From assembly GCF_001625325.1 (NCBI RefSeq), contig NZ_JRQQ01000006.1, positions 124,001-188,000 of the forward strand: a DNA stretch of 64,000 nucleotides, written 5' to 3'. Numbering within the stretch: the first letter of the stretch is position 1; each line of letters starts with the position of its first letter. Source of the DNA: Croceicoccus estronivorus. GTDB taxonomy: Bacteria; Pseudomonadota; Alphaproteobacteria; Sphingomonadales; Sphingomonadaceae. A program made the position numbers and the translations under genes. Under the pieces are notes generated by a model, which was not told where the DNA came from, searched no databases, and saw nothing but the letters and a program-made list of their open reading frames with translations. Shown here piece after piece: positions 9,324 to 58,381 of the stretch.

Positions 9324-10508
9324 TCATTTCTCTCCATAGGGCCACACCCAGAGGTCGCGCGGTCCCCGCAACACTCCGCTGACGAATTCGACCGGGCGCC
9401 CCGGCACCAGCGCCATTTGCGGAAACCGTTCGAGCACCACCTGCAAAGCGATTTCCAGTTCCCGCTTGGCAAGATGCAGGCCAAGGCAGAAATGCGGCCC
9501 CCGGCCAAAGGTAATCGTATCGCGATTGTTCCGCGACGGATCGAACCGCCGGGGATCTGGGAATTTCTTCGGATCGGAATTGGCGGCGGTTATGCCGAAC
9601 AGCATCCAGTCGCCGCGACGGATCGGCTTGCCCGCAAAATCGACGTCGGCAGACGCCATACGCGGCAACAAGGCTGTGGGCGGCTGCCAGCGCAGCGCCT
9701 CCGCCACCACGGCCTCCCGCCCTGCCTTGCCGGACAGCGCAACGTCCCGCACCGCGGGGTCCGAAAGAACGGCGGCGAACATGCTGCCTGCGACTTTGAA
9801 TGTCGTATCCGAGCCAGCGGGAAACAGCAGCCGCAGGAATGTGAGCACCTGTTCATTGTCCAGCCGTCTGCCTTCCGATTCAGCCTGCGTCAGCGCCGAA
9901 AGCATATCCTCGCCCGGTGCGGCGCGGCGTTCTTCGATGATCGGCACCATATAGCTGTCGAACTGGGCCTTGGCGCGCATGGCCCCTTGCGGATCCCAGG
10001 GAAAATCGAACAGCTTGACCGCCCATTCGAGGAACCGTTCTTCATCGCGAACGGGAATGCCCAGCATTCGGGTAATGATCGAAAACGGGTAGGGCCGCGT
10101 GAATGCAGCGACGAGATCGACTTCGCGTTCAGCGGCAATCCTGTCGGAAATTTCCATGGCCACCGGCTCGATCAGCGGTTCGATGTGCGACCGGATCACG
10201 CCGGGCTGAAATGGTGCCGTGACAATGTTGCGATGGAGGCGATGTTCGGCACCGGACATTGTCATGATATTGCGGCCCAGCGGCTCCTCGACCATCTGGC
10301 GATAGCCTTCGCCCATGTCGAAATGGTCCTGATCGAGAAACGCCTGCTGCAATTCCTCATAGCCCAGAATCAGCCAGACCGGGGCACCGTGGTAGTTGAC
10401 CGAAACCACCGGCCCTTCACGGCGCAGATCCTCCAGCACGTCATGAAGATCAGGCAAGTCGTCACGAGCGAAATCGATCTCTGGAAGCAATGGGTTGGTT
10501 GCAGACAT
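9324..10508 (-). CDS. Cytochrome P450 (soluble bacterial type), copy 1
   Basis: A 394-residue soluble P450. The I-helix AGSDTT is at 231-236, the ExxR pair is E270/R273 in EALRWQPP, and the heme-binding loop FGRGPHFCLG has thiolate C341. It binds O2 at heme and needs a ferredoxin; one is encoded at 11882. ATG 10508 has GAGG just upstream. It is clearly paralogous to the divergent P450 at 10680: the IPV.DEER, FPWDP, AGSDTT, RWQPPTA and RGPR blocks are shared in order. It is translationally coupled to the epoxide hydrolase. An alkene or terpene epoxidation is the simplest reading, but the substrate is unknown. Confidence 0.95.
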   Translation of the reverse strand: MSATNPLLPEIDFARDDLPDLHDVLEDLRREGPVVSVNYHGAPVWLILGYEELQQAFLDQDHFDMGEGYRQMVEEPLGRNIMTMSGAEHRLHRNIVTAPFQPGVIRSHIEPLIEPVAMEISDRIAAEREVDLVAAFTRPYPFSIITRMLGIPVRDEERFLEWAVKLFDFPWDPQGAMRAKAQFDSYMVPIIEERRAAPGEDMLSALTQAESEGRRLDNEQVLTFLRLLFPAGSDTTFKVAGSMFAAVLSDPAVRDVALSGKAGREAVVAEALRWQPPTALLPRMASADVDFAGKPIRRGDWMLFGITAANSDPKKFPDPRRFDPSRNNRDTITFGRGPHFCLGLHLAKRELEIALQVVLERFPQMALVPGRPVEFVSGVLRGPRDLWVWPYGEK

Positions 10509-10679
10509 GATCCTCACCAGGGACTGTTGACGCGGCAAATCTAACGCGCTGCCTGCGCACGCCTATTCCCATATGGAGACTGACTTGTCGTAAAACCCAC
10601 CGTATTCTCGACTCCCATAATTCGCCGGACGATCCGGTGCCGTGTCAGGCGCCGGATCGAACAAGGACGGAAAGAGAGG

Positions 10680-11882
10680 ATGCCGATGCCCGATGCAGAC
10701 CTGCTGATGCCTGATGTGGATTTCGCCTACGACGACGTTCCCGACCTTCACGAGCGCATTGTCCAGCTGCGGCAGAACGGCCCGGTGGTTCCCGTCCGCT
10801 ATCATGGCGACAGGACCTGGCTTATCCTCGATCACGAGCTGGTGAAGCAGGCATTCGAGGATTACGATCATTTCGACCCTGCCCCCGGCTATCAGCAGAT
10901 CGCCGCCCCCTCGATGGGCCAGACCATCCAGACGATGAGCGGAGACGAACATCGCATCAGCAGGGGATTGGTGACCGCCCCCTTTCTGCCGTCGAAAATT
11001 CGCAGTCTGGTCGAAGACCTGATCGAGCCGATCGCCAACGAATTGCTGGATCGCGTCGCAGGCAAAGAGGTCGTTGATCTGGTCAGCACTTTCACCAGAC
11101 CGTATCCCTTCATGGTCATAACACGCCTGCTGGGCATTCCGGTCGAGGATGAGGAGCGGATGCTGGAATGGGCGATCAAGATGATCGACTTCCCATGGGA
11201 CCCGGACGGCGCAGTCCGGGCGAAAGAGCAGTTCCAGGCCTATATGCAGACGATCATCGACGACCGCCGGGCCAATCCCACCGGGGACTTCATGTCGATG
11301 CTGGTGCAGGCGGAATACGAAGGGGAGCGCCTGAGCGACGAGCGTATTCTCGGGTTCGTCGGGCTGCTGTTTCCCGCCGGTTCCGACACGACCTACAAAA
11401 ATGCAGGCAGCCTGTTCGCCTGCGTTCTGGCCGACCCTGCCCTGCGCGAACGGGCGCTGCGATCGCCCCGGGATCGCGAACTGATCGTGACGGAATCTCT
11501 GCGCTGGCAGCCGCCAACCGCATTCCTGCCCCGCATGGCGAGCAACGATGTTGAACTCGGCAACGTGCAGATTCGCAAGGGCGAATGGACGCTGTTCGGC
11601 ATTACCGCCGCCAATGCGGATCCCAAGGTTTATCCTGATCCGCACAGGTTCGATCCGGACCGGGACAATCGAGACATCCTGACATTCGGCCGGAGCAAGC
11701 ATTTCTGTCTGGGGATGCATCTCGCCCGGCGCGAACTGGAAACGGCCCTTCGCCTGGTATTCGAGCGTTTCCCCCATATGGTGTTGGAAAAGGGCGAACC
11801 GGTCGAATTTGTCGGTGCGGTATTGCGGGGACCGCGCGCCCTCCACGTCCGTCCCTATGGGCAAAGAGAGGATCAGAACTGA
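10680..11882 (+). CDS. Cytochrome P450 (soluble bacterial type), copy 2
   Basis: A 400-residue soluble P450 with I-helix AGSDTT at 233-238, ExxR at E272/R275 (ESLRWQPP), and heme loop FGRSKHFCLG with C343. An internal ATG at 10686 (start MPDADLL) is an equally good start, with GAGAGG 6 bases before it. The stop overlaps the ferredoxin start (TGATG), so oxygenase and electron donor are made together. It is a paralogue of the P450 on the opposite strand, separated by a 171-base divergent promoter region. No ferredoxin reductase is encoded in the window, so electrons must come from a reductase elsewhere. Confidence 0.95.
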   Translation: MPMPDADLLMPDVDFAYDDVPDLHERIVQLRQNGPVVPVRYHGDRTWLILDHELVKQAFEDYDHFDPAPGYQQIAAPSMGQTIQTMSGDEHRISRGLVTAPFLPSKIRSLVEDLIEPIANELLDRVAGKEVVDLVSTFTRPYPFMVITRLLGIPVEDEERMLEWAIKMIDFPWDPDGAVRAKEQFQAYMQTIIDDRRANPTGDFMSMLVQAEYEGERLSDERILGFVGLLFPAGSDTTYKNAGSLFACVLADPALRERALRSPRDRELIVTESLRWQPPTAFLPRMASNDVELGNVQIRKGEWTLFGITAANADPKVYPDPHRFDPDRDNRDILTFGRSKHFCLGMHLARRELETALRLVFERFPHMVLEKGEPVEFVGAVLRGPRALHVRPYGQREDQN

Positions 11883-25829: not shown

Positions 25830-26711
25830 ATGAGCAAGGCACTAAGCTGGACTATCGGAAACGTCGAAGTAATCCGGATCGCGGAAAGCTGCGATCCGTT
25901 CCCTCCCGAAATGCTGCTCCATCAGGCGTCGGCCGAAGCGCTCGCGCCGCATCTTCCCTGGTTGCAGCCACACTTCGTGGACAGCGCCGGAAAGATGCTG
26001 ATTTCAGTTCATGGTCTGGTTGTGAAGAGCCGGAACAGGACGATCATGGTAGACACCTGCATAGGACCCCACGTGGTCGAGGAAAGCGGGCAACTGCCCA
26101 CCAACGCCTTTTTCGAAAATCTTCTGGCCGCAGGCCTGACTCCCGAAGGAATCGACACCGTACTGTGCACGCACATGCATTTCGATCACGTCGGCTGGAA
26201 CACCATGATGAAAGATGGGGCGTGGGTCCCGTCCTTCCCCAACGCCCGGTATCTCTTTTCCCGCAAGGAGTGGGAGCATTGGCATGCCGCAAAGGAGAAG
26301 GGGTATGCCATGACTCTGAACGAATGCGTCCAGCCGATCGTCGACGGAGGTCTCGCCGACCTGGTGGACATGGACCACATCATCACGGACGAGGTCCGGC
26401 TGGTGCCCACCCCCGGCCATACGCCCGGCCATGTCTCTGTAGCCATCGAATCGTGTGGTGAAAGGGCATTCATAACCGGTGACCTCTTCTTCCATCCGAT
26501 CCAGTGGGCGGAAATCGAATGGGGCTCCGATGCCGATGACGATGCCGAGGCAGCAGAGGCCATGCGGCGCCATGTCAGGGATGTCTATGGAACGCAGGAC
26601 AATCTCATCATCGGCACCCACTTCGCACCACCAACCGCAGGGCACGTCATGCGCGACGCGGACAACTGGTGGTTCCGCGCGCTTGCCGACGAAGGCTCCA
26701 AAGCAAATTGA
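25830..26711 (+). CDS. MBL-fold metallo-hydrolase
   Basis: A 293-residue metallo-beta-lactamase-fold protein. The di-metal motif THMHFDHVGW (about 113-122), the later metal His in PTPGHTPGHVS (about 193-203), and Asp in TGDLFFHPIQW (about 214-224) are all present. The family includes lactonases (AHL lactonase, AidC types), aryl hydrolases and sulfatases. The overall layout, with a long N-terminal region and HxHxDH plus GHTPGH, resembles quorum-quenching lactonases and pesticide hydrolases. The position between an alpha/beta hydrolase and an amidohydrolase suggests lactone or ester opening. Substrate unproven. Confidence 0.88.
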   Translation: MSKALSWTIGNVEVIRIAESCDPFPPEMLLHQASAEALAPHLPWLQPHFVDSAGKMLISVHGLVVKSRNRTIMVDTCIGPHVVEESGQLPTNAFFENLLAAGLTPEGIDTVLCTHMHFDHVGWNTMMKDGAWVPSFPNARYLFSRKEWEHWHAAKEKGYAMTLNECVQPIVDGGLADLVDMDHIITDEVRLVPTPGHTPGHVSVAIESCGERAFITGDLFFHPIQWAEIEWGSDADDDAEAAEAMRRHVRDVYGTQDNLIIGTHFAPPTAGHVMRDADNWWFRALADEGSKAN

Positions 26712-31989: not shown

Positions 31990-32015
31990 GGGCCGGATCG
32001 GGAATTGTCCGGCCC
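31990..32015 (+). terminator. Hairpin after TonB receptor 2
   Basis: GGGCCGGA (31990-31997) pairs perfectly with TCCGGCCC (32008-32015) around a 10-base loop, followed by GTTCT. A second, longer-looped inverted repeat, GCAGGGGT and ACCCCTGC, lies just before it. It may attenuate rather than fully stop transcription into the downstream isomerase gene. Confidence 0.5.
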
Positions 32016-32125: not shown

Positions 32126-32926
32126 ATGCATCCGCGCATTTCGATCAACACGATCAGCACGCTGACGTGGCCGTTGGCCGACGATCTCGCGATGCTGCGC
32201 CGCCTTGGAGCAAAGCGGATCGGCTTCCCGCTGATGAAGATCGAAAACGATATTGCCGGCGGCATTGCCGCGATCCGGCAGGCAGGCCTCGAAGTCACTT
32301 GCGTGGCCGCCTTGGATGCAACGGCGAGCCTGCTCGGTGAAGGGGAAGCCATGACGGTACTCGCCCCCTCGATCGACGCTACCGCACAGGCGGGCTGTTC
32401 GCTGTGTTATTTCACATCGGGGCGGACTCCGCCGCGCATGTCGACCGACGCCGCATGCACAGCACTCACCTCCGTACTTCCGGAAGTCGCGGCCTACGCT
32501 GAACGGCAAGGGGTGCGTCTGGCCGTCGAAAACAATTCGATCACCAACCGCAATATCGGCTTCGTTCATACGCTGCCCGATGCGTTCAGGCTATGCGGGG
32601 AGGCCGGCATCAGCCTCTGCCTCGAGTTGCAGAACTGCTGGTACGAGCGCGATCTGCCGCGGCTGTTTCGCGAAAACATGCATCACATCGCGCAAGTTCA
32701 GGTGAGTGATTTCATGGTCGGTGAGGAACTGAGGCTCAATCGCCGCGCACTGGGCGACGGTACGATGCCGTTGGCCTGGCTGATCACGGAACTGCTCGAG
32801 GCGGGATATGCGGGTGTGTTCGATATCGAGATCATCGGGCCCAGCGTCGACGCGGAAGGTCCGGAAATAGCACTTCAGCGCAGCATCGACTGGCTGAACA
32901 ACCTGCTGATGGAGCGAGGCGCATGA
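32126..32926 (+). CDS. Xylose-isomerase-like TIM-barrel protein (sugar phosphate isomerase/epimerase family)
   Basis: A 266-residue AP_endonuc_2-type TIM barrel. The start is set at ATG 32126, which has GGGAGATG upstream; an open frame from 32042 has none. Candidate metal ligands lie on strand ends: Glu in LAVENNS, Glu/Gln in CLELQNCW, His/Gln in HIAQVQVSD, and Glu in VFDIEIIG. Such proteins isomerise or epimerise hydroxyketones or sugars with a divalent metal. The stop overlaps the sulfotransferase ATG, so this opens a four-gene coupled operon. Confidence 0.85.
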   Translation: MHPRISINTISTLTWPLADDLAMLRRLGAKRIGFPLMKIENDIAGGIAAIRQAGLEVTCVAALDATASLLGEGEAMTVLAPSIDATAQAGCSLCYFTSGRTPPRMSTDAACTALTSVLPEVAAYAERQGVRLAVENNSITNRNIGFVHTLPDAFRLCGEAGISLCLELQNCWYERDLPRLFRENMHHIAQVQVSDFMVGEELRLNRRALGDGTMPLAWLITELLEAGYAGVFDIEIIGPSVDAEGPEIALQRSIDWLNNLLMERGA

Positions 32927-34095
32927 CTGTCGAATATCCTTCCGCCAAAGAACTCATGGACCGGGCCAGCGAACAGACCGGTCTGGATGATTTCGGTGAA
33001 CCGACTTTCCTCGAAGGGCTGGACGTCATGCGCGAAAGCCTTGCGGCCGACGTGCCATATGGCCCTGCCGACCGGGAAAAGGCGATCAACCTGATTGTCC
33101 GCCGCCTTGCCAATCGCTTGCAGATCGAAGCCTGGTTTGCCGCACATCCCGGGGCGGAAAACGCGCCGATCGAAAATCCGATTTCCATCGTCGGATTGCC
33201 ACGCACCGGTACGACGGCACTGGGCAACATGCTTTCGCTCGAACCCCAATTCCGATCCTTGCGCGCGTGGGAGCAGGAACAGCCTTGTCCGCCGCCACGA
33301 CTGGAGGATGAAGAGCGTGATCCGCGGCGGGTAGCCTATGTGACAATGGTGGAGAACCTCCTGCGCGACGATCCGGAACAGGCGGCAATGCATTTGTGGG
33401 ACGCAGATGCTTCGGTCGAGGATACCGAAGTGCTCGGCCTCGAATTCCGGTCACAGCAGATGACAATGCCGATCTGGCGCTATCACGACTGGTGGCGGAA
33501 AGGGGACATGCGGCCCACCTTCGCCTACCATGCGCGCGTTGCCCGGCTGCTGCAATCCAGCCGCCCGCCCAATCGCTGGCTGTTCAAGGCACCGCACCAC
33601 AAGTTCCATCTGGACCATATGGTCGACGCCTATCCCGATATCCGGTTCGTCTTCACCCACCGCGACCCGGTGAAGTCGGTGCCGTCCTACGCCAGCTTCG
33701 TGGCGTCGCTCTATCCCCCTGAAGTGGTGGCCAAGATAGGCAAGGAGAAAATCGGCCGGGAGATTCATAGCCATCTCCTTACGGGAATGCACCAGGCCAT
33801 GGCCGCCCGTGAAAAGCTCGGGCCCGATCGCTTCCTCGACGTGCATCATGCCGACTTCGTTGCCCGCCCGATGGAAGAGCTGGAGCGTATCTACGACTGG
33901 CTCGGCATGGAGCTGACCAATGCCATGCGGCAGCGGTTTGAAACCTGGCGCGAGGAAAACCACTCGGGCGCACACGGCGCCCATCGTTACACCGCCGAGG
34001 AATACGGCATGTCGCCCGAGCAACTGCGCGAAGATTTCGATTTCTATATCCGCGCCCTCGACATTCCTTCCCGCCGATTAGGAGCACATGCATGA
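32923..34095 (+). CDS. Sulfotransferase-family protein (Sulfotransfer_3 type)
   Basis: A 390-residue P-loop sulfotransferase-fold protein. The phosphate-binding loop is GLPRTGTT (91-98) after strand PISIV. The 3'-phosphate region is FTHRDPVKSVPS (244-255), giving R247 and S252 as the likely PAP-contacting pair. The C-terminal LRPG-like helix of cytosolic sulfotransferases is replaced by GAHRYTAEEYGM (about 352-363). It overlaps both neighbours by ATGA. Family members in sphingomonads and mycobacteria sit in degradation clusters with no proven sulfated product, so the real chemistry here is open. Confidence 0.88.
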   Translation: MTVEYPSAKELMDRASEQTGLDDFGEPTFLEGLDVMRESLAADVPYGPADREKAINLIVRRLANRLQIEAWFAAHPGAENAPIENPISIVGLPRTGTTALGNMLSLEPQFRSLRAWEQEQPCPPPRLEDEERDPRRVAYVTMVENLLRDDPEQAAMHLWDADASVEDTEVLGLEFRSQQMTMPIWRYHDWWRKGDMRPTFAYHARVARLLQSSRPPNRWLFKAPHHKFHLDHMVDAYPDIRFVFTHRDPVKSVPSYASFVASLYPPEVVAKIGKEKIGREIHSHLLTGMHQAMAAREKLGPDRFLDVHHADFVARPMEELERIYDWLGMELTNAMRQRFETWREENHSGAHGAHRYTAEEYGMSPEQLREDFDFYIRALDIPSRRLGAHA

Positions 34096-35045
34096 TTGAA
34101 GGACGCAAGATCCTGATTACCGGGCCTGCCGGGCAGATTGCCTTCCCAATGGCTCGCGAACTGGCAAAGCACAACGAGGTATGGGGTATTGCCCGCTTCA
34201 GCGATCCCGCCAGCCGGCAGGAAGTGGAAGCCGCGGGAATCCGGACACTGGCGATCGACATCGCTGATCCCGATTTCTCCGAATTGCCCAAGGATTTCAC
34301 GCATCTCCTGCATCTTGCCGCCGTCGTCCAGGGCGACGATTATGAAGCAGCGATGCGGATCAACGCGGAAGGCACGGGGCTGCTGCTGTCGCACTGCCGC
34401 AATGTCGAGGCAGCGCTCGTGATGTCGACGGTTTCGGTTTATAAACCGCACCCCGATCCCTGGCATCTGTTTCACGAAGACGATCCACTGGGCGATATCA
34501 TGCTGCCCATGGCGCCAGCCTATTCGATCGGGAAAATCGGCGAAGAAGCCGTAGCCCGCTTCTGCGCCCGTGAGTTCAATATTCCCATCACCATTGCGCG
34601 CATGGGGGCATCCTATGGCCCCCGTGGCGGCCTTCCGGTGTTCGTTATGCAGGCCTTGGCCACAGGGAAGCCCGTGACGACACGCTGGGATCCGTGCCCC
34701 TACAGCCCGATCCACGACGATGACATGCTGGCGCACGTCGGCCCTCTGCTGGAAGCAGCAAGCGTTCCGGCCACGATCGTCAACTGGGCGGGCGACGAAG
34801 CCGTCAGCATACAGCAGATCGTGGAATACGGCGCAGAACTGCTAGGGCTCGAACCTCGTATAGAAGTGGTCGAAGTACCCGGTGCTTCGATCGGTTCTGC
34901 CGTTGACGCGACCAGACGATTGGCGATCACCGGCCCATGCAAGGTCCAGTGGAAAGAGGGAATATATCGCACCCTCAAGGAGCTCTACCCCGATCGCATA
35001 AAGCCTGAACATGGCAGGCAGGAAGAGGAAACCCAACATGACTGA
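34092..35045 (+). CDS. NAD-dependent epimerase/dehydratase (extended SDR)
   Basis: A 317-residue extended short-chain dehydrogenase. The N-terminal nucleotide motif is ITGPAGQIAFPMA (about 8-20), a variant of TGxxGxxG. Catalytic Tyr/Lys are in APAYSIGKIGEE (Y-x-x-x-K), and the Ser position is in MSTVSVYKP. It overlaps the sulfotransferase by 4 bases and the next gene by 8, so production is coupled. Complete active-site residues make oxidoreductase or epimerase activity likely, unlike the epimerase-like protein at 7194. Confidence 0.9.
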   Translation: MIEGRKILITGPAGQIAFPMARELAKHNEVWGIARFSDPASRQEVEAAGIRTLAIDIADPDFSELPKDFTHLLHLAAVVQGDDYEAAMRINAEGTGLLLSHCRNVEAALVMSTVSVYKPHPDPWHLFHEDDPLGDIMLPMAPAYSIGKIGEEAVARFCAREFNIPITIARMGASYGPRGGLPVFVMQALATGKPVTTRWDPCPYSPIHDDDMLAHVGPLLEAASVPATIVNWAGDEAVSIQQIVEYGAELLGLEPRIEVVEVPGASIGSAVDATRRLAITGPCKVQWKEGIYRTLKELYPDRIKPEHGRQEEETQHD

Positions 35046-36228
35046 CAGCAAACTGCGCATGCCCGAATGGGATGCGATGCTAAAGAATATCGCGCCTGTC
35101 GGCGACCAGCTTGTGAACCGCTGGGGCCGCGAGAATCCTGACGCCGACGACCGGCGGGAATTGTTCCTTCTCGCCCTTTCGGCGGTTGCCAACGGCTATC
35201 TCGATCACGTTTCGTTCGATCCGCGCAAGCCGACCTGGACGCCATGCTGGAATATCGCGATGAACATGGGCGGGCCGTGCCCCGACTACACTTACAACTC
35301 GACCGAAGTCGACCCGAAGGGCACATATCGCCTTTCCGGATTCCGCGGGACCAATCGCTTCGTCGAAGTCGGACAGCAAAGCTATGAACTGCTCGGTCAC
35401 GAAGGCCCGACTTCGCATCCCCCCGTTCAGAATGCGCTCGACGAACTGACACTGGGAAAAGACGGCTGGTTCAGCGTGATCTTGAGTGCGGAGCGCCCTG
35501 CCGGTTACGATGGCGACTGGTGGAAGCTGGAGCCATGGACTGCCCGCCTTTTGATGCGCCAATGTTCAGTCGACTGGATCAACGAAGTCGATGCCCGGAT
35601 GGCGATCGAACGGCTTGACGACGGCCCCGAAACATCGGCTGCCGAAAAGGACCGCCGGATCGGCAATCTCGGCCCATGGGCCGAGGGGATGGTACGCTTC
35701 GACATCGACCTCGCCCGCTGGTATCGGGAAAACCACGGCGTCAACGTGCTTACACGTTCGAAAAAGATCGAAAGCATCGGGGGCATGCCCAACCAGGTCT
35801 ATTATGACGGGGCCTACGAAATCGAAGATGACGAAGCTCTGGTGATCGAAACGGCCCTGCCGCAGTCGTGCCTTTATTGGTCCCTGCTGGTGGCCGACGA
35901 CCGGTTCAGCACGATCGACTGGGCCAATCGGCAAACCAGCCTTAACGAATCCCAGGCCCGCATCGATTCCGACGGCAAGCTACGCGTCGTGATCTCGAAG
36001 CAGGATCCGGGCGTGCAAAACTGGATGGACAAGGCGGACAATCCCTGGGGCATCATACAGATGCGGTGGAAAGTCCCCAGCGATGCACCCGACGCGACGG
36101 TGACACGGTGCAAGGTCGCCGACGTGCGGCAGCATCTGCCCGCGGACACGCCCATCTACACCGCTGAAGAACGGGCCGAAGCGATCCACAAACGCCGTGT
36201 CGGTTATCAATTGCGCAAACACTGGTAA
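35038..36228 (+). CDS. DUF1214-domain protein
   Basis: A 396-residue soluble protein; start ATG 35038 lies inside the previous gene's end after GGAAGAGGAA. The C-terminal about 120 residues match DUF1214: ALVIETALPQSCLYWSLLVA, a region with TSLNESQARIDSDGKLRVVI, the DPGVQNWMD loop, and IIQMRWK. The N-terminal half lacks a recognisable domain and carries no DUF1254 partner. It is the last gene of the isomerase-sulfotransferase-epimerase operon. DUF1214 function is unknown; co-occurrence with sulfotransferase genes is a recurring pattern that I recall, not one I could check. Confidence 0.82.
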   Translation: MTDSKLRMPEWDAMLKNIAPVGDQLVNRWGRENPDADDRRELFLLALSAVANGYLDHVSFDPRKPTWTPCWNIAMNMGGPCPDYTYNSTEVDPKGTYRLSGFRGTNRFVEVGQQSYELLGHEGPTSHPPVQNALDELTLGKDGWFSVILSAERPAGYDGDWWKLEPWTARLLMRQCSVDWINEVDARMAIERLDDGPETSAAEKDRRIGNLGPWAEGMVRFDIDLARWYRENHGVNVLTRSKKIESIGGMPNQVYYDGAYEIEDDEALVIETALPQSCLYWSLLVADDRFSTIDWANRQTSLNESQARIDSDGKLRVVISKQDPGVQNWMDKADNPWGIIQMRWKVPSDAPDATVTRCKVADVRQHLPADTPIYTAEERAEAIHKRRVGYQLRKHW

Positions 36229-36271: not shown

Positions 36272-36299
36272 CAGGGCCACTCTCCAGAGAGTGGCCCTG
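36272..36299. terminator. Strong bidirectional hairpin between convergent operons
   Basis: CAGGGCCACTCT (36272-36283) and AGAGTGGCCCTG (36288-36299) form a perfect 12-base stem with a CCAG loop. It is followed by TGTCTTTC on the plus strand. It sits in the 77-base gap between the DUF1214 and alcohol dehydrogenase stops, and would stop both transcripts. Confidence 0.75.
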
Positions 36300-49417: not shown

Positions 49418-50308
49418 ATGGCTGGCCTTGCTGACCCACTGCGTTCCATCACACAGGACGAAATCGATATGTTCTGGCGCGATGGCTTTGTCTGCCTGCG
49501 CGGAATCATTCCGCGGGATTGGATCGAGCGAATGCAGCTCGCCGTCGATCGCTGGCTACAATCGCCAGAGTGTTTCGATTACACCGAATACGGAACCGAT
49601 GTCGCCCAGGCAGCCGGGGCCGAAGTTCTGCTGGATTCCGGTGAACAGCGCGGTCGGTTTTACAGCAGCCAGGATCACTGGCAGCACCTGCCCGATTTTC
49701 GGGAGTTTGCGTTGCATTCTCCCCTTGCCAAGATCTGTGCCGCTCTTCTCAAGGCCACGCGGCTTAACTTGTACGAAGACAGCGTTCTCGTGAAGGAACC
49801 CGGTGCCCTGGAGAAAACCGCCTTTCATCAGGACATTTCCTATTTCCACGTCGAAGGACATCAGATCTGCACGACGTGGGTGCCGCTCGATCCGGTCCGG
49901 GCTGACACCGGATCACTGAAATTCGTGCCTGGCAGTCACTTGTGGAAGAAAAAATATCGGCCCAACTTCTTTATTACCGACTTGTTGATGCCAGGGACCG
50001 AGGGCGAAGCGGTTCCGAACTTCCACAAGGATAACCGTAGCAAAGAAATCATCAGCTTCGACATGGAACCGGGCGATATGACCGTTCATCATGCACGGAC
50101 CATCCACGGTGCGGACGGTAACACATCGAAGGATACCCGTCGGCGAGCGATTTCGGTGCGTTACTGCGGTGATGATGCCCGATACCACTTCCGCAAGGGC
50201 GTTCCGCTCAAGTCCCATCACCAGTCAGTCAAAGAAGAAGATATCCTCGATCATCCTGATTGCCCTGTAGTATGGCCCACACAGGCTACTGGCGCCCGGA
50301 ATGAGTGA
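49418..50308 (+). CDS. Phytanoyl-CoA dioxygenase-family (PhyH) Fe(II)/2-oxoglutarate oxygenase
   Basis: A 296-residue PhyH-family protein. Iron ligands are H137 and D139 in FHQDISY and distal H230 in HARTIHGADGN; R241/R242 in SKDTRRRAISVRY would bind 2-oxoglutarate. The facial triad is complete. It hydroxylates a small molecule with O2 and 2-oxoglutarate. GGAG precedes the ATG. Its end overlaps the isomerase-like gene by 8 bases, so the two act as a pair. The substrate is unlikely to be phytanoyl-CoA, because family members are very varied. Confidence 0.91.
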   Translation: MAGLADPLRSITQDEIDMFWRDGFVCLRGIIPRDWIERMQLAVDRWLQSPECFDYTEYGTDVAQAAGAEVLLDSGEQRGRFYSSQDHWQHLPDFREFALHSPLAKICAALLKATRLNLYEDSVLVKEPGALEKTAFHQDISYFHVEGHQICTTWVPLDPVRADTGSLKFVPGSHLWKKKYRPNFFITDLLMPGTEGEAVPNFHKDNRSKEIISFDMEPGDMTVHHARTIHGADGNTSKDTRRRAISVRYCGDDARYHFRKGVPLKSHHQSVKEEDILDHPDCPVVWPTQATGARNE

Positions 50309-51392
50309 GAAGAACGCAGGCCGCCAGGAGGAGCTGTTAATCGGTATTTCTGACTTTGGGATCATGCATACGGTTCCGGGTGAATTTCCGATCGACCAGC
50401 GTTTTCGTATGGTTCAAGATGCCAACGTATTCGATTATATCGACAAAACTCCTGAACCGCATGAGATTACGGACTATCGCGATGCCGTGCAACGGCATGG
50501 CATTCCTCTGACGGCAGGCGGGTACTATTACGTCCTTGGAAAGGACGAGCAGCTTCTCAGACAGCATTTGGAGCTTGGGCGGGAGTTTGGCGCGCGTGTT
50601 CATAATGTTCAGGTACTTTCCCGGGACAGCCAAGGGGAACTCGTCACGGACGAACAGATCGCCGAAATCTATCTGGATGCGATGGAATGGGGTAGTACAT
50701 CAGCAACCATCCCTTGCTTCGAAGTCCACGTTGGCATGTGGTCCGAGCAATTTTCCCGTGTTCAACGCGTGGCAGAATTGGTTGAGCGGCGAGGTCTGAA
50801 ATTCAACATTACTCTCGACCACAGCCATATCGTTTTTGCGATCCGCAACAGGGACGCGCAGGAGACCATGGGAATCCGCTCTGAGGTGGAGGCCGGCGCG
50901 ATCACGCTCGACCCGTTTTCGAACGGTAACATATGCCGGAACTGGATCGAAGCTGGCCTTGTCCGCCACGCACATGCTCGCTCCGCGGTCCCGAACGGTC
51001 CGCGCAATCAGTGGATGGCCGGTCTGGATGGAAGGCCCGGCCTCGCCCTCCAGTATCCCTTCATCCGGCCGAATGCGGGGCAATGGCATTCGGAATGGGA
51101 CGAGAGCTTGCTGGAAACGTGGAAATTCGCGATCAGCAAATTATTGCAGCATCACGCAAACACGCCGGGAAGCAGGCTTGGAACCATCTCTACCGAGTTC
51201 ATTCCCTTCGCGGACTACGGAGGTGGAGCGAAGTATTCTCTTTTCGAAAACAACATCGCATGCGCGACATGGATCAGGGCAGAATGGGAACGCCTGAGCC
51301 GCAATGAACTAACACCCCCAGCGACAAACGGGAGCAGTTCGCAAAAAACTTCGATGCCAAAAAAGGTGCGGGCGGCAGATAGCCTGCCTTAG
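50301..51392 (+). CDS. Xylose-isomerase-like TIM-barrel protein
   Basis: A 363-residue TIM-barrel protein of the sugar phosphate isomerase/epimerase group, longer than the 266-residue one at 32126. Candidate metal-binding residues are in CFEVHVG (Glu and His), ITLDHSHI (Asp and His) and STEFIP (Glu). The polar, low-complexity tail (about 335-363, with SSSQKTSMPKKV) is probably disordered. It overlaps the PhyH gene by 8 bases. Coupling a hydroxylase to an isomerase suggests that the oxygenase makes an alpha-hydroxy-carbonyl for it to rearrange; this is inference. Confidence 0.8.
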   Translation: MSEKNAGRQEELLIGISDFGIMHTVPGEFPIDQRFRMVQDANVFDYIDKTPEPHEITDYRDAVQRHGIPLTAGGYYYVLGKDEQLLRQHLELGREFGARVHNVQVLSRDSQGELVTDEQIAEIYLDAMEWGSTSATIPCFEVHVGMWSEQFSRVQRVAELVERRGLKFNITLDHSHIVFAIRNRDAQETMGIRSEVEAGAITLDPFSNGNICRNWIEAGLVRHAHARSAVPNGPRNQWMAGLDGRPGLALQYPFIRPNAGQWHSEWDESLLETWKFAISKLLQHHANTPGSRLGTISTEFIPFADYGGGAKYSLFENNIACATWIRAEWERLSRNELTPPATNGSSSQKTSMPKKVRAADSLP

Positions 51393-56802: not shown

Positions 56803-57364
56803 ATGTATTTTAGTGCAGATTTTCAGCCTCCTGGCTAATGGAGCAACTGCTATGCCCTTGAACTCACCCAAGCAGGCAAAATATCGCTCGTAACGATATT
56901 CTTGCCTTCAACTAAAGGCCTAGGATCGTCAATATGGCCAAGGGCGTGTTCTGTATTTTAAGTCGGAGATGGGCGAACGAGCCTGAGACCCGGGCATCGC
57001 CGCCACCCGCTAATCATGACAATTGAAATCAAAGGTCGTGGCTTCGGACCACATGGAAAGCACACAGATACGCTCTCCAACAAACCGCAGCCTGTCTTCG
57101 GATCGCCTCTTGCGAGGGACCGAGCACGTAAAGGTCCATATGTTTGCCCTGCGGCAGGAGGGGGTTTGGAGCCCTACTTGTGACGCGGTGCCCTTCGCCT
57201 CCTGGTTCCAGCGAATAATTCTGCATGGCCCGATTGGCGGGAACCGCCACGGAGCTGCGTTCTCCTTTGCATGACACCACTCCTCAGGGGCCGGCCAGCG
57301 GCGCATGTCGGCGCTGTCGGCCGTCAAGTTCCATCACCCCATCAGCAATAGAAGGACTTCAATA
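56803..57364. other. Divergent intergenic region, TBDR 4 / adhesin
   Basis: A 562-base gap between divergent genes. Overlapping open frames near 57010-57330 on both strands show no domain or motif and look like chance frames. Promoters for both genes should lie here; no clear inverted repeats were seen by eye. Confidence 0.4.
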
Positions 57365-58381
57365 ATGGCGAAATGCGACCTTTTTCTTCGCTCGCAGGCC
57401 ATGCTTGCGATAACCCTCTCAGGCAGCGTGCTCTCATTGCTTCTCGCCAGCCCGGCCCATGCCGATAACACTCCCGAATGCAATGTCGGTGCCGGAGTGA
57501 ACTCAACCGAATGCGGCGCCGACAGCGTTGCCAGCGGTGGCGGTTCAACCGCCATCGGCGGATTCGCCAGGGCCGAAGCCGACAAGTCAACTGCGGTCGG
57601 CGTGGCAGCTGTCGCCGGCTTCGGCGGCTCGACCGCCGTCGGGCAGACCGCCACGGCCGGTGCCATCGAGACCACCGCAGTCGGCAGATCAGCGACGGTC
57701 ACGTCCAGCCACGGCAGCGCTCTTGGTGCCGCTTCTGCTGTTCTGGCCACCAATTCGGTGGCGCTCGGCTATGGTTCGCAGGCGCTCGAGAGCAATACTG
57801 TTTCTATCGGCACCGTTGGCGGAGAACGCCGGCTGGTCAATGTCGCCGACGGTATCAATGGCACCGATGGCGTCAATGTAAGCCAGCTCGCTAGCGAGGC
57901 GGACCAGCGCGCAGCAACAGATGTCCTGTTGCAGAGCAATATCAGCAGCAACAGGTCCGGTATTGCCGCTAATACAGCGGCGATCGCAAGAAACTCGGCG
58001 GATATTATCGCCGATACGATGGCCACCGCCGTCAACACGGCAGGTATTGCCGCCAATACGGCGGCGATCGCAAACAACACAGCGGGGATCGCGGCCAATA
58101 CGGCAGGAATCAACGATCTCTATGCTGTCACGGACCGCGACCGGCGTCAGGCCCAACGCGGGACCGCCGTCGCGGTGGCGCTGACGGCAGCACCGATGCC
58201 CTCCCAGGCTGGCAGGACAAGCTATACCTTCAATCTGGCGACCTATCGTGGGGCCCAGGCCGGTGGATTGTCCCTTGCTCACCGTCTGGCCAGCGAGACC
58301 CCGTTCGCGATAACCGTCGGGGCATCGGTTGCCGGGAAGAGTGATATCGCAGGGCGGATAGGTGTCGCCGGGGAATTCTGA
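57365..58381 (+). CDS. Compact trimeric autotransporter adhesin (YadA-like)
   Basis: A 338-residue exported protein with ATG after AGAAGGA. Signal peptide about 1-36 (ends AHA). Head of repeated STAxG / TAxGxxA units (about 55-150: GGSTAIGG, DKSTAVGVA, GSTAVGQTA, ETTAVGRSA, NSVALGYGS). Neck RRLVNVADGINGTDGVNVSQL at about 160-180. Short repetitive stalk (about 195-255: IAANTAAIA, VNTAGIAANT). C-terminal anchor-like YTFNLATYRGAQAGG and VGASVAGKSDIAG. It matches the whole layout of YadA-type trimeric adhesins in a very small size; each subunit would supply four strands of a 12-strand barrel. Confidence 0.88.
   Translation: MAKCDLFLRSQAMLAITLSGSVLSLLLASPAHADNTPECNVGAGVNSTECGADSVASGGGSTAIGGFARAEADKSTAVGVAAVAGFGGSTAVGQTATAGAIETTAVGRSATVTSSHGSALGAASAVLATNSVALGYGSQALESNTVSIGTVGGERRLVNVADGINGTDGVNVSQLASEADQRAATDVLLQSNISSNRSGIAANTAAIARNSADIIADTMATAVNTAGIAANTAAIANNTAGIAANTAGINDLYAVTDRDRRQAQRGTAVAVALTAAPMPSQAGRTSYTFNLATYRGAQAGGLSLAHRLASETPFAITVGASVAGKSDIAGRIGVAGEF
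57955..58114 (+). repeat. In-frame stalk repeats of the adhesin
   Basis: Near-repeats of about 21-42 bases encode GIAANTAAIARNSADI, VNTAGIAANTAAIANN and TAGIAANTAGIND. They keep the reading frame, so copy changes would lengthen or shorten the stalk without breaking the protein. Repeats are imperfect at the third-base level. Confidence 0.7.

Follow-up and report, generated by a model that had tools for sequence, protein, structure and literature searches.

What does a sulfotransferase (ST) do in a putative carbon-degradation cluster, its gene overlapping those of an isomerase, an epimerase and a protein of the DUF1214 family? This question is raised by four genes at positions 32126-36228 of the window, that is, the whole 64,000-nucleotide stretch of Croceicoccus estronivorus DNA that was analysed. 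Sulfonation is known mostly as conjugation or biosynthetic tailoring, and we know of no function for DUF1214; literature searches on DUF1214 and DUF1254 gave nothing useful on function. The host genome is 3.67 Mb in size, and its nearest named relatives in the searches were sphingomonads.

The operon and its conserved trio

Reading frames and Pfam profiles gave the gene order isomerase, ST, SDR/epimerase, DUF1214. All four genes lie on the same strand, and the overlaps between successive genes are 4, 4 and 8 bases. An earlier note on this DNA had described the same frames and families, with overlaps of 4-8 bases, and this description was borne out. The genes and the hairpins at their borders are as follows.

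31990-32015, no strand: hairpin at the left border, between the TonB receptor gene and the operon; inverted repeat GGGCCGGA/TCCGGCCC, 8-bp arms
32126-32926, forward strand: xylose-isomerase-like TIM barrel of the sugar isomerase/epimerase type (PF01261, 79 bits, E=5e-22)
32923-34095, forward strand: PF13469 sulfotransferase with intact PAPS-binding motifs (135 bits, precisely 134.7, against a cut-off of 27; E=8e-39)
34092-35045, forward strand: extended SDR, TerB-like reductase (PF01370, 55 bits)
35038-36228, forward strand: DUF1214 protein of 396 aa, ATG at 35038 (PF06742, 34 bits; cut-off 25)
36272-36299, no strand: hairpin at the right border, 3' of the DUF1214 gene; 13-nt perfect arms, 2-nt loop

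Because the four genes lie between the two hairpins, they likely form one transcription unit. A scan for sigma-70 consensus promoters and terminators supported neither operon border and was uninformative. No thioesterase or carrier protein was found among the operon genes by reading frames and Pfam. NCBIfam profiles gave no match for the ST or DUF1214, and matched the isomerase and the reductase below cut-off only.

The ST, the reductase and DUF1214 form a conserved module across Alphaproteobacteria and Actinomycetota. The trio is contiguous in Sphingobium sp. OAS761 (locus L097), with identities of 72% for the ST, 69-70% for the reductase and 82-83% for DUF1214. Among 248 mycobacterial genomes searched, 12 had a close reductase relative (58-64% identity, clearly separated from the next group at about 47% and lower), and the trio was contiguous in all of them, in the order reductase-ST-DUF1214. 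A mycobacterial locus of the next reductase group (L145) contains its own divergent DUF-ST-reductase set. Between-locus distances of the three proteins were correlated over 15 loci (r=0.95-0.99), as expected from joint descent; taxonomy alone also contributes to these values. In a metagenome-assembled genome (L099:9575-11164), a TerB-like reductase remnant runs into the DUF1214 frame; thus, reductase and DUF1214 were probably adjacent there too. The trio is not obligatory, since two loci (L106 and L107) contain the reductase and a PF04199 hydrolase without DUF1214, and several DUF1214 sequence clusters have no ST.

The isomerase has its nearest solved structure in 7vpf (E=3e-10), and no relative of it was found in any other trio locus examined. 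A four-gene module was rejected on this ground, and the isomerase is best regarded as a local addition outside the conserved module. The earlier note had made its reading depend on the four families being conserved together; the ST, the epimerase and DUF1214 were, and the isomerase was not. A mobile catabolic island may have brought the four genes together by chance, with no joint function, but this is highly unlikely: such an origin agrees with the isomerase not being conserved with the other three, and stands for that gene, but is contradicted for the trio by its contiguity in two phyla and its correlated divergence.

The trio cluster of OAS761 also contains relatives of several neighbours of the operon, and a second, paralogous ST-DUF1214 cluster of the C. 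estronivorus genome itself (L016) has relatives of the LysR regulator and the membrane PQQ dehydrogenase:

25830-26711, forward strand: metallo-beta-lactamase-fold (MBL) hydrolase, lactonase-like (PF00753); truncated orthologue in L097, 67-70% identity
28521-29453, reverse strand: LysR regulator; 46-47% identity in L097, 54-56% in L016
29606-31939, forward strand: TonB-dependent receptor, upstream of the operon; orthologue fragment in L097, 66-69% identity
39719-42124, reverse strand: membrane PQQ dehydrogenase (PF01011); paralogue in L016, 62-63% identity
42618-43733, reverse strand: PF04199 cyclase-family hydrolase; 82% identity in L097, 78% in L106 and L107 (adjoining the reductase), 50-57% in L101

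The PF04199 hydrolase accompanies the TerB-like reductase and/or DUF1214 in other loci. In OAS761 (L097:6568-7727), the MBL and TonB receptor genes are adjoining fragments, as if the intervening region had been deleted. Elsewhere in the window, two divergent cytochrome P450 genes lie at 9324-11882, in the same island. At 49418-51392, a gene for a phytanoyl-CoA dioxygenase-like protein and a second TIM-barrel isomerase-like gene share 8 bases and form a small translationally coupled pair, and a short trimeric-autotransporter-like protein with a YadA head and stalk repeats is encoded at 57305-58381.

The three proteins and PAPS supply

The reductase aligned with TerB of p-terphenyl biosynthesis (6ND7, 6D2V) over its full length (6nd7: residues 2-306, E=1.5e-71). 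Its nucleotide motif G11xxG14, S112 and Y144xxxK148 were invariant in 14 relatives. The label 'epimerase' of the earlier note was correct as to the PF01370 SDR family; TerB-like reductase is the better name, since TerB is the closest homologue. TerB belongs to a 'dual reductase-dehydratase' system according to the title of a paper that PMC11074319 cites; our search of the TerB literature gave nothing useful on function. A TerB/TerC system would be expected to have an adjacent NTF2-like dehydratase, and a relative on a Streptomyces plasmid is followed by the gene for an NTF2-like protein. The operon reductase is instead flanked by the ST upstream and DUF1214 downstream, and no NTF2-like dehydratase was found beside it.

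The ST is closest to the solved structures 2z6v (E=9e-52) and 2zq5 (E=3e-37), which we take to be STF9 of Mycobacterium avium and STF1 of M. tuberculosis, respectively; both belong to the same ST subfamily and have its motifs in common. No report of a DUF1214 partner of STF9 or STF1 was found in the literature searched. The P-loop reads G91-L-P-R-T-G-T-T98 and the 3'-phosphate motif H246-R-D248...S255, and in an alignment of 18 relatives G91, R94, G96, H246, R247, D248 and S255 were invariant, in agreement with the earlier observation that both regions are kept. It had also been remarked that no PAPS synthesis genes or sulfatase are near. This is true of the regions examined, yet the genome encodes one APS kinase domain (L020; its frame has 638 residues and lies beside another of 335), and genome-wide searches gave nine substantial sulfatase matches plus two fragments. 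PAPS use by the ST is thus supported by its motifs and by the genomic APS kinase, as far as sequence can indicate. Alternatively, the PF13469 protein might transfer a group other than sulfate, or serve as a non-catalytic scaffold. Such a role would agree with the lack of a PAPS synthesis gene beside the operon, and we know of no activity for close relatives of this ST; the invariant P-loop and HRD...S residues, the APS kinase and the pairing of DUF1214 with sulfatases as well make it quite improbable.

DUF1214 has no detected signal peptide and is cytosolic. Its predicted model (pLDDT 89.6) has two beta-sandwich domains, with low-Z matches to binding modules. The model is matched in its entire fold by the uncharacterised protein 6ANS (Z 36.9, 26% identity), and VPA0106 (3U07) and VPA0735 (2P3Y), also uncharacterised, align in part only. 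Deriving a function from the fold was abandoned, as the relatives retrieved by Foldseek and structural comparison were all uncharacterised, apart from beta-sandwich modules at low Z. In 31 diverse DUF1214 proteins, P65, D83, Y97, G101, R174, W329 and R343 were invariant, while Y86, N328 and N303 showed almost no variation; the conserved polar residues would suit an active site or an anion pocket.

DUF1214 beside sulfate enzymes and in the cholesterol cluster

The association of DUF1214 with STs or sulfatases is well supported. In 29 of 30 mycobacterial genomes, the best DUF1214 locus had an ST or sulfatase no more than 1.5 kb away; many of these loci are orthologous and do not count as 30 independent events. 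The same distance gave such a neighbour for 11 of 29 sphingomonad DUF1214 loci. None of the 29 control loci, which were GMC-oxidoreductase loci with identical windows of 1.5 kb on either side, had such a neighbour. All 20 larger (20-kb) mycobacterial loci had a same-strand ST at most 800 bp from DUF1214. The DUF1214 sequences collected formed 23 clusters at 55% identity, most of which, beyond one lineage, had ST-paired members. In the C. estronivorus genome itself, six of the seven DUF1214 genes have an ST (four) or a sulfatase (two) at a distance of about 2 kb or less; the computed chance of 7e-9 serves as a guide only, the distance cut-off having been picked after looking. The association appears to be unreported, as no paper combining DUF1214 with a sulfate-enzyme term was found in the literature searched. 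It gives the DUF1214 family a testable functional hypothesis.

The location of DUF1214 seems to match that of its sulfate enzyme, as signal-peptide calls mostly went with sulfatase pairing and not with ST pairing. Three of four sulfatase-paired sphingomonad DUF1214 proteins (L057, L059, L061, L063) passed a crude signal-peptide heuristic, and the remaining one has a signal-like N-terminus, starting MRMRKYLGALAALASTAAWG. Among ST-paired DUF1214 proteins, 34 of 37 had no signal-peptide call, and one of the other three is likely a false call, since it falls within the domain. Together with the conservation of the trio in two phyla, the general association supports the earlier suggestion that the ST, the epimerase and DUF1214 act jointly on a sulfonated intermediate.

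The plasmid pSA2 of Novosphingobium resinovorum (L109:1-3100) presents another setting. Its DUF1214 gene lies amid annotated cofH, cofC and npdG genes of F420 biosynthesis and F420-dependent oxidoreductases; to our knowledge, F420 genes are unexpected in an alphaproteobacterium.

In the nine loci of one mycobacterial DUF1214 cluster, the genes are arranged as DUF1214-SDR-ST. Upstream of this set, locus L240 contains 3-oxosteroid 1-dehydrogenase/KstD (NF005882, above cut-off), an HsaE-like hydratase, acetaldehyde dehydrogenase (HsaG), 4-hydroxy-2-oxovalerate aldolase (HsaF) and two frames resembling PPE genes; in L243, KshA (PF19298) adjoins the set. Rv3534c-Rv3529c are listed in the cholesterol cluster of M. 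tuberculosis, with order and neighbours equal to those of L240, and the same list names Rv3531c as a predicted requirement for growth on cholesterol (PMC6429209). By gene order, the mycobacterial set would correspond to Rv3531c-Rv3530c-Rv3529c. Like the operon trio, these genes encode an ST, an SDR and a DUF1214-like protein on one strand, within a catabolic cluster for a cyclic terpenoid. The ST of the set is nearly identical with 2zq5 (E=4e-238). Its DUF1214 homologue (L240:9161-10300) had no match in Pfam-A, and aligned with the operon DUF1214 by hhalign with a probability of 100 (E=5e-41) at an overall identity of about 25-31%; its assignment to the DUF1214 family, as Rv3531c by position, seems to be unrecorded. 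The SDR differs, being a classical short SDR (PRK07890), whereas that of the operon is TerB-like. The presence of a related set inside the cholesterol cluster supports the link to catabolism made earlier, and bears on mycobacterial ST-SDR-DUF1214 genes to which earlier lists assign no role. The genes scanned in the window included no recognisable KstD, Hsa or Ksh gene.

Plasmids of Sphingobium TomTYG65 and S. herbicidovorans contain the TerB-like reductase and a PF04199 hydrolase without DUF1214, and these strains have been studied for steroidal saponin breakdown (PMC10653915). Tomatine-degrading Sphingobium might have spoken directly for a steroid substrate, but was kept as a lead only, that paper being silent on sulfotransferase, DUF1214 and epimerase genes.

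A possible reduction-sulfonation-elimination route

Known enzyme families are thus joined in a module whose use is undescribed in the sources searched. We tentatively propose, as the best reading of these results, that the trio is a three-enzyme module in a catabolic island, which reduces a ketone, sulfonates the alcohol and processes the sulfate ester through DUF1214. The TerB-like reductase would act first, on a steroid- or terpenoid-like intermediate, turning a ketone in its ring into an alcohol, and the PAPS-dependent ST would sulfonate the new hydroxyl. DUF1214 would then bind and process the sulfate ester, most probably by sulfate elimination; the net result would be a reductive dehydration at a position that does not easily lose water. 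Neighbouring hydrolases (the PF04199 cyclase-family protein and the lactonase-like MBL protein) may finally open the ring. We infer the substrate class, the order of steps and the DUF1214 chemistry; the chain is the simplest that uses all three proteins. DUF1214 would occupy the place of the dehydratase of the TerB system.

In curacin-type chain release, ketoreduction is followed by sulfation of the beta-hydroxyl, which is then lost by elimination (PMC6274090). The logic of this KR-ST-TE termination (CurM, HlaB), namely to reduce, to sulfate and to expel sulfate, is the same as that proposed here, and the curacin route is a precedent for the proposed activation of the alcohol for elimination. 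CurM and HlaB differ in being biosynthetic polyketide synthase domains with a thioesterase and without DUF1214, whereas the operon module is proposed to be catabolic. Several points count against the proposed route. The fold of DUF1214 resembles only uncharacterised proteins (6ans, VPA0106, VPA0735) and so gives no structural sign of catalysis, elimination is seemingly redundant in the sulfatase-linked versions, and the optional nature of the module noted above is a further objection. ST families also produce stable sulfate esters.

In another possible role, sulfonation is a solubilising or parking step: the ST turns a toxic or overflow intermediate into a stable sulfate ester, DUF1214 acts as a binder or carrier, and sulfatases later recover the alcohol, with no elimination. 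We regard this as rather doubtful. In its favour, some DUF1214 genes have a sulfatase nearby and the trio clusters L097 and L098 contain one too, and the beta-sandwich domains with their low-Z likeness to binding modules also agree with it; the dedicated reductase of the trio speaks against it, and the predicted requirement for Rv3531c on cholesterol (PMC6429209) better fits a pathway step than storage. It is slightly less likely that DUF1214 takes the free alcohol or ketone as its substrate and is an isomerase, dehydratase or hydratase, with the ST or sulfatase catalysing the preceding or following step and a hydroxylated substrate class, not sulfate, being what is shared. Such a role would account for a partner that is an ST in one context and a sulfatase in another, and for those DUF1214 copies with neither enzyme nearby, but the near-universal mycobacterial ST association is tighter than a mere shared substrate class predicts.

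Returning to sulfate elimination, a wider claim is more doubtful than the three-enzyme route itself: DUF1214 could be a large unrecognised class of sulfate-eliminating lyases, working with STs in the cytosol and sulfatases in the periplasm, and sulfo-activation could be general in aerobic steroid and terpenoid breakdown, including that of cholesterol in mycobacteria. A consistent partnership of DUF1214 with sulfate enzymes would add sulfonation to the catabolic toolbox. The recurrence of the trio in unrelated soil bacteria, and that of DUF1214 genes beside sulfate enzymes, the mycobacterial cholesterol cluster included, point to a so far unrecognised role of sulfate groups in degrading tough cyclic molecules.

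A different arrangement was seen in another locus of the C. estronivorus genome (L019:5436-7570; G000:C1, about 480 kb), where another ST gene is followed by that of an alpha/beta hydrolase; the relatives of this hydrolase in L106 and L107 bear the annotation haloalkane dehalogenase. An ST of this genome is about 78% identical to the plasmid STs of L106 and L107. A leaving-group enzyme beside an ST could represent a second form of sulfo-activation.
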